Assembly: GCF_040717445.1 (NCBI RefSeq)
Contig: NZ_JBFEFL010000001.1
Span: forward strand, 1,240,001-1,304,000
Reading direction: 5' to 3'
DNA from: Qipengyuania sp. JC766
GTDB lineage: Bacteria > Pseudomonadota > Alphaproteobacteria > Sphingomonadales > Sphingomonadaceae
DNA length: 64,000 nucleotides
In this document: positions 6,936 through 43,660 of the stretch, piece by piece
How positions within the stretch are numbered: the stretch's first letter is position 1
How the letters are laid out: each line of letters starts with the position of its first letter
Translations under genes and position numbers: made by a program
The notes under the pieces: model-generated
The model's input: only the letters and a program-made list of their open reading frames with translations
What the model was told of the DNA's origin: nothing
Databases searched by the model: none

Positions 6936-6965
6936 AAAAAGCCCCGCACAATGGCGGGGCTTTTT
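6936..6965. terminator. Bidirectional intrinsic terminator between the copper protein and def
   Basis: AAAAAGCCCCGC, a 6-base loop and GCGGGGCTTTTT form a perfect 12-bp stem including the A/T flanks, giving a T run on both strands. It lies 30 bases after the plus-strand gene ending at 6906 and 5 bases after the end of def on the minus strand, so it can end both convergent transcripts. Confidence 0.9.
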
Positions 6966-14922: not shown

Positions 14923-16185
14923 TTGGACCATTTCGCACTGAAGGACGGCGTCCTGCACGCCGAAAACGTCGCCCTGCCCCGCATCGCGCAGGAGGTGGGC
15001 ACGCCGGTCTACGTCTATTCGCGCGGCGCACTGGTCGCACAGGCGCGCGCGTTTCGTGACGCCCTGTCCGAACTCGACGATCCGCTGATCGCGTTCGCGG
15101 TCAAGGCCAACCCGAACCTTGCCGTACTGAACGTGCTGCAGCGCGAGGGATACGGGGCGGACGTGGTGTCCGGCGGCGAGATGCGCCGCGCGCTGACCGC
15201 CGGGATCGCGCCCGACAAGATCGTGTTTTCCGGGGTCGGCAAGACCCGGGCGGAACTGGAACTGGGGCTGGACGAGCGGATCGGGCAGTTCAACATCGAG
15301 TCGCGCGAGGAAGGCCACGAGCTCGCGGCGCTCGCGGCGGCGCGCGGGATCCGGGTCGATGCCTGCCTGCGCGTCAATCCGGATGTCGATGCGAAGACCC
15401 ACGAGAAGATCTCGACCGGGAAGGCGGAGAACAAGTTCGGCGTGCCGCTGTTGCGCGCACGCGAAGTGTTCGCCGAACTGGCCGCGCTCGACGGAATGAA
15501 CCTGCGCGGCGTGGCGATCCACATCGGCAGCCAGCTGAGCGACCTGGAGCCGCTGGAAACCGCCTTCGCCAAGATCGACACGCTTGTCGCGGACCTGCGC
15601 GCATCGGGCTTTGCGATCACCCATGTCGACCTGGGTGGCGGCCTCGGCGTGTCCTACCGCAAGGACGAGGTAGTCCCGACGCCGGCCGAATACGGCCGCA
15701 TGGTCGCACGAATGACGAAGGGCTGGGACGTGCGCCTGACCTTCGAGCCCGGCCGCCTGATCGCCGGCAATGCGGGTGTCCTCCTGACCCGCGTCGTGCG
15801 CGTGAAGCGAGGCGGCAACGGACCGCCTTTCGTCATCGTCGACGCGGCGATGAACGACCTCGCGCGCCCGGCCCTCTACGGCGCCTGGCACGATTTCGAC
15901 GCCGTCGAACCGAGCGGGGAGCGGATGACGGCGAACATCGTCGGCCCGATTTGCGAGACGGGCGACACCTTCGCCACCGACCGCGATTGCGACGCGCTGG
16001 AAAGCGGTGACCTGGCCGTGTTCCGGACCGCCGGCGCCTACGGGGCGAGCATGGCGAGCAGCTACAATTCGCGCGGCTTCGTGGCCGAGGTGCTGGTCGA
16101 CGGGGACAGGTACGCGGTCGTGGCGGACCGGATCGATGCCGCCGCGATCATGGACGCGGAGCGCGTGCCGGAATGGCTGGCATAG
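14923..16185 (+). CDS. lysA: Diaminopimelate decarboxylase
   Basis: This 420-residue PLP enzyme of the alanine-racemase fold makes lysine from meso-diaminopimelate. The PLP lysine is Lys61 in FAVKANPNLAVL; other blocks are GADVVSGGEM, HIGSQ, GGGLGVSY, EPGRLIAGNAG and the C-terminal GAYGASMASSYN. The start is a TTG at 14923, four bases after the lipoprotein stop; the N-terminus then matches the family. It overlaps the next gene by 13 bases. Confidence 0.97.
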   Translation: MDHFALKDGVLHAENVALPRIAQEVGTPVYVYSRGALVAQARAFRDALSELDDPLIAFAVKANPNLAVLNVLQREGYGADVVSGGEMRRALTAGIAPDKIVFSGVGKTRAELELGLDERIGQFNIESREEGHELAALAAARGIRVDACLRVNPDVDAKTHEKISTGKAENKFGVPLLRAREVFAELAALDGMNLRGVAIHIGSQLSDLEPLETAFAKIDTLVADLRASGFAITHVDLGGGLGVSYRKDEVVPTPAEYGRMVARMTKGWDVRLTFEPGRLIAGNAGVLLTRVVRVKRGGNGPPFVIVDAAMNDLARPALYGAWHDFDAVEPSGERMTANIVGPICETGDTFATDRDCDALESGDLAVFRTAGAYGASMASSYNSRGFVAEVLVDGDRYAVVADRIDAAAIMDAERVPEWLA

Positions 16186-16991
16186 GCAGCCTGCCCCTGT
16201 TCCACCGGATTGCGGGCACCCGCGTGGTGCTGGTGGCCGAAGGGGACATGGGCGATGCGAAGCGGCGCCTGATCGAACGGGCGGGCGGCATCCCCTGCGG
16301 CGAAGCCGAAGCGCATTACGCGAAGCTGGCCTTCGTCGCGCTGGACGATGCGAAGGACGCCGAAAAGGCGGCGCTGCGGCTGAAGCGGATGGGCCTGCTG
16401 GTCAACGTCGCCGACCGTCCGGAACTGTGCGACTTCACCACGCCCAGCATCCTCGACCGCGAGCCGGTGCTGGTGGCGGTCAGCACGTCCGGCGCTTCGG
16501 CGGGCCTCGCCAAGCAGCTGCGGCTGCGCCTGGAAACATTGCTGCCGCAATCGCTCGGCCGGCTGGCGACGCGGCTGAACGAGGAGCGCGAGCGCCTCCG
16601 TGCCCGCTGGCCCGACGGGCAGGAGCGTCGCGGTGCGCTCGACGCGGCGCTTACCTCCGGCGGACCGCTCGATCCGATGCAGGACGGGGCGGACGAGCGG
16701 TTCGATGACTGGCTTTCGGACACGGACCATGCCTCCGCGCCCGAGGTCCGGACGATAGAACTCGCCAGCGCCGACCCGGACGATCTGACCATCCGGCAGG
16801 CGCGGTGGCTGGGCACGGCGGACACGATCGTGCACGACCCGGACGTGCCCGCCGCCATCCTCGCGCGCGCGCGGGCCGATGCGGCGCGCATCCCGGCATC
16901 GGATCCGCGCGACCCGATGCCGGGCCTGACGGTTATCCTGCGGGGCCCGGATCAGGCGGCGAAGACGGCCGCCTCCTTGTCCGCGAAGTAG
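16173..16991 (+). CDS. Siroheme-synthase-like protein: precorrin-2 dehydrogenase domain plus degenerate SUMT fragment
   Basis: Residues 1-125 match the dehydrogenase/ferrochelatase half of CysG (Met8 type), shown by NVADRPELCDFTTPSIL and VAVSTSGASAGLAKQLR. The nucleotide-binding segment reads VVLVAEGDMGDAKRRL, without the usual glycine triplet. Residues about 191-240 resemble only the first 50 residues of a uroporphyrinogen-III methyltransferase (DPDDLTIRQARWLGTADTIV), but the GAGPGDP motif has become ELASADP and the rest of that domain is missing. A complete methyltransferase is encoded separately at 35162. It probably acts in siroheme synthesis. Confidence 0.75.
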   Translation: MAGIGSLPLFHRIAGTRVVLVAEGDMGDAKRRLIERAGGIPCGEAEAHYAKLAFVALDDAKDAEKAALRLKRMGLLVNVADRPELCDFTTPSILDREPVLVAVSTSGASAGLAKQLRLRLETLLPQSLGRLATRLNEERERLRARWPDGQERRGALDAALTSGGPLDPMQDGADERFDDWLSDTDHASAPEVRTIELASADPDDLTIRQARWLGTADTIVHDPDVPAAILARARADAARIPASDPRDPMPGLTVILRGPDQAAKTAASLSAK

Positions 16992-17938
16992 CGCGCCATC
17001 GCCTCCGCGGCATCGTCGCTCAAGGCGATGAAGGTGCGACGTTTGTCCATCTCGTCCGCTTCGCGCACCAGTATGCCGTCCTCCACCATCTGCGTGATCC
17101 AGCGCAGCGCGGTGGTCGGCGGCACGTGGGCGGCGATGCACAGGGACGTAACGGACACCCTGGTGTGTTCGGCCCGGGCGGCCGTCAGGTCGAGCAGCAT
17201 GTCCCACGCAGGATCTGCGAACAGCGCATCGTCGAACAGCGCCGCGCGCGAGCGTCGCTTGGCAATGACCTTGCGCACCAGCGCCGCGTCCGGCAGCGGC
17301 GGGCGCGGCTGGCGGATGTAGGCGCGATCTTCCCCGGCAGGCTTGAAAGCCGGGTCGGGCGAGCGGAACCGGAACGCCCCGCCATCGGCCGCAAGCCCCT
17401 GCGCATTCGCCAGTTCGAGCTGGCGGGCGAGCTGCCCCACCTGCTCCGTCAGGCGCAGCAGGCTGATCCGGTCCTCCTCCCCGAACTCGCGCAGGCGCGC
17501 GTCGGGTACGCGGGACAGGGCCCGGCCAAGCGCGACGACCCGGTCCCCCCGGCCAGGATCGACCAGCACGGGCGCCGCGCTGAGCGACAGGCAGCCGAAG
17601 ACCGCGTCGAGCGCGTCCAGCGTAGTCGAAACCAGCAGCCGCGCATCGCACCGGCCCGCGCGCATGTCCGCCCGTTCCAGCGCGGCCAGGCTGCGCGCAT
17701 CGTCCGCTGGGCAATCGACCAGCACGATATCGCCCAGCGCGCGTGCTTCCCCTTCCAGCAGCAGGTCCAGCCCGCCGACCTGCCCGACGCGCAATCCCGC
17801 CGCCAGCGCATCGTCGCGCATCTGGTCGCGCAAGGCCGGCCGGTCGGCGAAGACCGAAACGAACAGCGGCAGGCCGGCGGCATCGTTGGCGGCGTCCGCA
17901 ACCGTTTCGTTCACGGAATAATCGTACTGGGCCTGCAT
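16952..17938 (-). CDS. MarR-like winged-helix regulator with an N-terminal receiver-like region
   Basis: This protein of 328 residues has residues about 240-328 forming a winged helix (VSVTSLCIAAHVPPTTALRW, then the wing EADEMDKRRTFIALS), like MarR proteins. Residues about 20-140 look like a degenerate alpha/beta receiver fold (VSVFADRPALRDQM, DIVLVDCPADD, LLVSTT), and about 150-182 is a short coiled coil. The target is unknown. I chose the ATG at 17938 because AGGAG lies 7 bases upstream; that site sits inside a perfect hairpin (17945-17970). The 3' end overlaps the convergent siroheme gene by 40 bases. Confidence 0.75.
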   Translation of the reverse strand: MQAQYDYSVNETVADAANDAAGLPLFVSVFADRPALRDQMRDDALAAGLRVGQVGGLDLLLEGEARALGDIVLVDCPADDARSLAALERADMRAGRCDARLLVSTTLDALDAVFGCLSLSAAPVLVDPGRGDRVVALGRALSRVPDARLREFGEEDRISLLRLTEQVGQLARQLELANAQGLAADGGAFRFRSPDPAFKPAGEDRAYIRQPRPPLPDAALVRKVIAKRRSRAALFDDALFADPAWDMLLDLTAARAEHTRVSVTSLCIAAHVPPTTALRWITQMVEDGILVREADEMDKRRTFIALSDDAAEAMARYFADKEAAVFAA

Positions 17939-17944
17939 GGATCG

Positions 17945-17975
17945 ACTCCTGTTCTGGTATGAACAGGAGTAGAAC
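17945..17975 (-). promoter_or_regulatory. Perfect palindrome covering the ribosome-binding site of the winged-helix regulator
   Basis: On the minus strand ACTCCTGTTC, a 6-base loop (ATACCA) and GAACAGGAGT form a perfect 10-bp inverted repeat (17945-17970) that ends 6 bases before the start codon. The AGGAG ribosome-binding site lies wholly in the right arm, so in the transcript it would be paired. As DNA it is a good dimer site. The flank also gives GTTC-N7-GTTC (17961-17975), the form of the alphaproteobacterial LexA box. Whether it acts as RNA or as an operator is open. Confidence 0.6.
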
Positions 17976-18006
17976 AAAACGGGATCAGGTCAAGTTCCCG
18001 AATTCG

Positions 18007-18536
18007 TCAGGGGCGAATTTCTATCGGCGTCCCGTCGGGCACGGCGGACCACATTTCCTCGATCTCGGCATTGGTCACCGCGATGCAGCCGTCGGTCCAG
18101 TCGCCCGAAATGCGGTCCAGCGGCGATCCGTTGGGCTGGCCGTGGATGAAGATGTCGCCACCCGGGCTGCGGCCGACCGATTGCGCGAAGGCCCGGTCGC
18201 GCGCATCGGGATAGGAGATGCGCAGCGACAGGTGGTAGGCGCTGTTCGGGTTGCGCGTATCGATGGTGTAGCGGCCTTCGGGCGTGCGCTCGTCCCCTTC
18301 GAATTGCTTGTGGCCCTGCGGCGCATCGCCGAAGGCGATATCGCGATAGGTGCGCAGCGCCCGGCCTTCACGGAACAGGGTCAGCGTCCGGTCCGACTTG
18401 TCGACCAGCAGGAAGTCCGCCGTCTGCGTGAGCGGCGCGTCGGCCGCCTGCGGGGCCACCGCCTCGCGCGGGACGGGGCTGCATCCCGCGGCCAGCGCGA
18501 GCGGCAGAAGCCAGGAAAGGCGCCCGCCCCGCCGCA

Positions 18537-18537
<1 letters not shown>
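18007..18537 (-). CDS. L,D-transpeptidase (YkuD domain) lipoprotein
   Basis: This 176-residue protein has a lipoprotein-type signal (LLPLALAAGC) and a YkuD domain: substrate motif IHGQPNG and catalytic block SGDWTDGCIAVTNAE, with the nucleophile Cys in GCI. Enzymes of this type make 3-3 peptidoglycan cross-links or attach proteins to the wall. The start overlaps the purA stop (TGATG), so it is translated from the purA message. Confidence 0.88.
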
Positions 18538-43622: not shown

Positions 43623-43660
43623 AAAGAAAATGCCCGGAATGCTTTTGGCATTCCGGGCAT
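43623..43660 (-). terminator. Intrinsic terminator of the Bax-inhibitor-1 gene
   Basis: On the minus strand ATGCCCGGAATGC and GCATTCCGGGCAT form a perfect 13-bp stem with a 5-base loop (CAAAA), followed by TTTTCTTT. It lies 31 bases after the stop of the gene ending at 43691. On the plus strand CGTCGTTTTT follows, so it might also work in that direction. Confidence 0.88.

Follow-up and report, generated by a model that had tools for sequence, protein, structure and literature searches.

The locus examined lies on the minus strand of the 64-kb window (the window being the whole stretch of DNA that was analysed) and comprises a gene encoding a predicted winged-helix regulator, its upstream region, and a preceding gene of the YkuD L,D-transpeptidase family. 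The features considered are as follows, in window coordinates:

16955 to 17938, minus strand: regulator coding sequence, 328 amino acids, with a predicted receiver-fold domain (residues ~24-142), coiled-coil helix (154-181) and MarR-like winged helix (~218-327)
17945 to 17970, no strand assigned: perfect 10-bp inverted repeat with a 6-base loop, not kept in relatives
17946 to 17950, minus strand: Shine-Dalgarno sequence AGGAG, 7 nt before the ATG and entirely inside one arm of the hairpin
17957 to 17960, minus strand: predicted transcript start region, in the hairpin loop, placed by the geometry of the -35 and -10 hexamers
17961 to 17975, minus strand: LexA-type box GTTCTACTCCTGTTC (GTTC-N7-GTTC), assigned by motif match and conservation
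17966 to 17971, minus strand: putative -10 hexamer TACTCC, 16 nt after TTGACC and inside the N7 spacer, a weak match to consensus
17983 to 17986, minus strand: degenerate third half-site GATC, 11 bp upstream of the box
17988 to 17993, minus strand: -35 hexamer TTGACC
18007 to 18537, minus strand: upstream gene of the YkuD L,D-transpeptidase family, in the same direction, ending 13 nt before the -35 hexamer

The ATG start of the regulator at 17938 is supported by homologs; a longer reading frame, opening with TTG, would have its start a short way upstream of the LexA-type box. The convergent gene on the plus strand (16173-16988) is similar to the N-terminal portion of sirohaem synthase and has a weak and partial methylase-domain match. 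MarR-type profiles gave only weak sequence matches to the regulator, with a Pfam MarR score of 19.1 bits, below the cut-off of 24.6, and similarity was present at the level of the fold. In the AlphaFold2 model (37 homologs; mean pLDDT 84.8, pTM 0.51) the chain folds into a (beta-alpha)5 domain followed by a long helix and a winged helix, and Foldseek matched the N-terminal part to receiver domains (FleR receiver, TMt 0.72; CheY, TMt 0.77) and the C-terminal part to the structures of the MarR proteins HosA, HpaR and MepR. Asp75, at the end of strand 3, Cys76, and Thr105, which follows strand 4, are invariant, and Asp32 is nearly so. A complete phosphorylation site was not found, since position 127 after strand 5 is Asp or Asn in most sequences in place of the usual Lys, and conventional phosphorylation of the product may thus not take place. 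Homologs were detected in 239 of the 249 Sphingomonadaceae genomes searched, whereas a search of 86 genomes across the class at E <= 1e-20 gave matches only in two Sphingomonadaceae and in 0/84 genomes from other alphaproteobacterial families. No description of the gene was found in the literature searched, which did not extend to the 2004 comparison of LexA regulons across proteobacteria cited in PMC1839093, where the gene may already be mentioned.

The preliminary description of this region drew attention to the inverted repeat, and its geometry was borne out by the sequence. On the minus strand the sequence reads TTGACCTGATCCCGTTTTGTTCTACTCCTGTTCATACCAGAACAGGAGTCGATCCATG (GTTCTACTCCTGTTCATACCAGAACAGGAGTCGATCCATG), and the repeat consists of the perfectly pairing arms ACTCCTGTTC (17970-17961) and GAACAGGAGT (17954-17945) around the loop ATACCA (17960-17955), and is separated from the ATG by a gap of 6 bases; AGGAG does indeed lie wholly within one arm, at 17950-17946. 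In the window, perfect repeats of 10 bp with a loop of 3-10 bases occur at ~4 distinct places; eight simulated sequences of 64 kb gave raw counts of 0-8 (mean 2), indicating that the repeat itself is not rare and is notable for its position alone. The same scan returned further perfect inverted repeats, of at least 10 bp, at 6936-6938 and 43631-43633 of the window.

The same bases contain a GTTC-N7-GTTC direct repeat at 17975-17961, as the preliminary description had also pointed out. The motif of Caulobacter LexA has been given as GTTCN7GTTC (PMC12700426) and its consensus as (T/A)TGTTC(N6)TGTTC (PMC13384398), and the site here fits both, the box plus two bases (TTGTTCTACTCCTGTTC, 17961-17977) being one of nine perfect (W)TGTTC-N6-TGTTC sites in the genome; the reversed control gave 0. 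Conservation of the box was examined in 100 distinct homologous loci. GTTC-N7-GTTC is exact in 89 of these, and several of the non-exact loci carry a box with one mismatch in the same place (e.g. L013, L021 and L100). In control windows of 220 nt, taken further upstream and inside the gene, no box was found, and on the opposite strand the frequency was 5%. Some relatives lack the box, e.g. L164, L169, L170 and L176.

Further conserved positions indicate that the box overlaps a promoter. In 85/100 loci the sequence TTGAC begins precisely 18 nt ahead of the box, and a 16-nt spacer from this -35 hexamer would place the -10 hexamer inside the N7 and the transcript start in the loop of the hairpin. 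A simple scan for sigma-70 promoters and terminators found no site. In the 83 promoters showing the full pattern, a set whose half-sites and TTGAC are invariant by the way it was chosen, the N7 varies but has T as its last base in 96%, and the TTT preceding the box is kept at more than 90% at each position. The N7 at this gene is mostly YACTCCT or TCATCCT, with TACTCCT and TCATCCT the commonest forms. Upstream of the box, GATC occupies the position of the third half-site in 42/89 loci of this gene, and its C is present in 96% of the aligned promoters. At 26/28 of the lexA promoters (L119, L214-L242), GTTG or GTTT is present 11 bp ahead of the box, while no third half-site of this kind was seen at the recA promoters; as a matter of speculation, LexA may contact three half-sites at the promoters of this gene and of lexA.

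The inverted repeat, on the other hand, behaves quite differently from the box across the same loci. An 8-bp version occurs at the same place in just two of the 99 other loci (L066 and L067), most loci having repeats of 3-5 bp nearby; a 9-bp repeat in L029 lies elsewhere, and the 10-bp repeat is seen in this species only. These data bear directly on the suggestion, made in the preliminary description, that the hairpin blocks ribosome access to the gene's own transcript in the manner of a thermosensor or other translational switch. As RNA the structure is strong, with a fold of -21.4 kcal/mol (z -2.65) for 17975-17900 and the whole of AGGAG inside it. However, the helix masking the ribosome-binding site is neither conserved nor covarying among the 100 loci, and the conserved promoter places the predicted start within the loop, so that the 5' arm would be promoter DNA and the main transcript unable to form the hairpin. 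A switch of this sort is accordingly regarded as extremely unlikely. The second suggestion, that the winged-helix protein binds the repeat as a dimer and regulates its own synthesis, fared little better. MarR-like dimers frequently bind palindromes near their own promoters, and the repeat here is both perfect and located at the predicted start site; yet the palindrome is not kept upstream of the orthologs, an argument against a dimer operator for autoregulation here, the bases that are conserved form a direct repeat plus a -35 hexamer with no dyad, and the same direct repeat precedes lexA and recA. Autoregulation through this palindrome is thus considered very unlikely, and both the RNA switch and the palindromic self-operator were rejected on the grounds of conservation and promoter geometry. 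The hairpin appears instead to be mostly a local coincidence, which arises because CTCCTGTTC of the box happens to complement the leader containing AGGAG.

A role for the hairpin in RNA reading through from upstream was also considered, whereby ykuD-derived RNA would carry the full hairpin and go untranslated whereas an SOS transcript started in the loop would be translated freely. Such an arrangement is compatible with LexA control and could hold in addition to it, although we judge it improbable. The ykuD gene is immediately upstream in the same direction, and the full hairpin requires an RNA start upstream of 17970; RNA from 17957 folds weakly and no better than shuffled sequences (z 0.61). 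Complementarity between box and leader was 5.15 nt as against 4.84 nt in permuted pairs (0/500 permutations), a comparison uncorrected for relatedness. Conversely, the long repeat is missing from nearly all relatives, and pairings of 8 or more numbered 5 against a mean of 3.2, a count reached in 19% of permutations and hence not significant. Selection for pairing between box and leader was rejected as a separate proposition, the small excess over permutation being unconvincing because permutation ignores the relatedness of the loci.

The genome contains one full-length lexA and one recA, with a box upstream of each (contig positions 620727-620741 and 392042-392056, respectively), and in the family genomes a box is found ahead of lexA in 28/30 loci and ahead of recA in 26/30. 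The N7 at this gene is unlike that of lexA (YGCATTC) and closest to that of recA; indeed, two exact 15-mers, GTTCCACTCTTGTTC and GTTCTACTCTTGTTC, are common to recA boxes and to the boxes of this gene in relatives. Elsewhere in the genome, boxes stand in front of the genes encoding MmcB (L143), an S24 peptidase (L124) and a RadA-like ATPase (L133), and a box was also noted before a gene read by eye as imuA (L136; no Pfam match). The genes near the remaining eight perfect (W)TGTTC-N6-TGTTC sites (G000:C1 231836, 352408, 411418, 819023, 824649, 1035282, 2022679 and 2105946) include those for a GH19 chitinase-like protein, an S24 peptidase, DUF3072 and a VOC-like protein (by eye), and are candidate members of the SOS regulon.

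Another regulator that uses GTTC half-sites could conceivably recognise the direct repeat. Of the 41 matches that the composite pattern TTGAC-N13-GTTC-N7-GTTC gave in 119 family genomes, 33 lie at this gene (the reversed pattern gave 4), and this near-uniqueness makes a gene-specific factor thinkable. Against this, identical half-sites with the same 11-bp period are found at lexA and recA, some relatives have 15-mers identical to those of recA, and the repeat fits the published alphaproteobacterial LexA motif (PMC13384398, PMC12700426); a different regulator is therefore deemed unlikely. Since the composite pattern is nearly confined to this gene it defines no wider regulon, and a regulon specific to this promoter type was rejected.

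The SOS control that the preliminary description had raised as a third option is, by comparison, strongly supported by comparative genomics. A promoter with a built-in LexA site that is conserved across the Sphingomonadaceae suggests that DNA damage probably induces the gene, and from these comparisons it is considered highly likely that LexA represses this promoter and that damage induces the regulator gene. The conserved element would then be a sigma-70-type promoter whose -10 hexamer is flanked by the two half-sites of a LexA operator of the alphaproteobacterial type. In undamaged cells, LexA positioned on the -10 hexamer would block RNA polymerase; upon damage, RecA-stimulated self-cleavage of LexA would free the promoter, and the regulator would be made from a short leader of ~20 nt that starts within the loop of the repeat, the hairpin being absent from this main transcript. 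The product would act, presumably, as a second-tier transcription factor.

Among homologs of less than ~50% identity the forward box is mostly missing. Reading of the upstream regions of L144-L163 revealed GAAC-N7-GAAC near the start codon in 7/20 (L146, L149, L150, L154, L155, L157 and L161), and it was found also in L272, L273 and L279, L272 and L161 being one and the same place; many others are without it. Since GAAC-N7-GAAC is the same operator on the other strand, its presence in this minority of distant homologs suggests that LexA control may have been kept or regained via promoter change in part of the family. The upstream regions of L146-L163 also contain recurrent TCC-N4/5-GGA-like palindromes, as judged by eye, e.g. 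TCCGTTTTGG and CTCCAAAATGGAG, often in several copies, and these are possibly another operator. More tentatively, the LexA-controlled receiver-fold winged-helix factor might constitute a family-wide second tier of the SOS response that relays damage to a regulon of its own in the Sphingomonadaceae, with the link kept even where the operator is flipped in distant homologs; this wider proposal, drawn from sequence comparison, is possible rather than probable.

The analysis predicts SOS membership for a regulator carried by nearly all of the Sphingomonadaceae genomes sampled, and a specific second-wave regulon thereby becomes open to testing in a group whose SOS network seems to have received little study. 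A further lesson is how a LexA box adjoining a ribosome-binding site can yield an eye-catching but accidental hairpin.

With respect to known systems, the site resembles the LexA operators of alphaproteobacteria such as Caulobacter in being a direct repeat of 11-bp period that fits the consensus perfectly, lies within a promoter and is also present here at lexA and recA (PMC12700426, PMC13384398). It differs from the Caulobacter operators in that its target is an undescribed regulator, in the putative -10 hexamer within the N7 and the fixed distance of 18 nt to TTGAC, and in the degenerate third half-site GATC 11 bp upstream. The placing of a transcription factor under LexA control, predicted here, has a counterpart in HigX of Caulobacter, a transmembrane factor of one lineage that is reached via the higBA promoter (PMC13384398), whereas the present box lies in the gene's own promoter and is kept across the family. 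At the level of the protein, the predicted (beta-alpha)5 fold with invariant Asp75 and Thr105 is shared with receiver-domain response regulators, from which the product departs in having Asp or Asn at position 127 instead of the usual Lys and an output domain that is MarR-like. Similarly, the C-terminal winged helix resembles those of HosA, HpaR and MepR, although the sub-cut-off Pfam score and the N-terminal receiver-like domain set the protein apart from MarR-family regulators.
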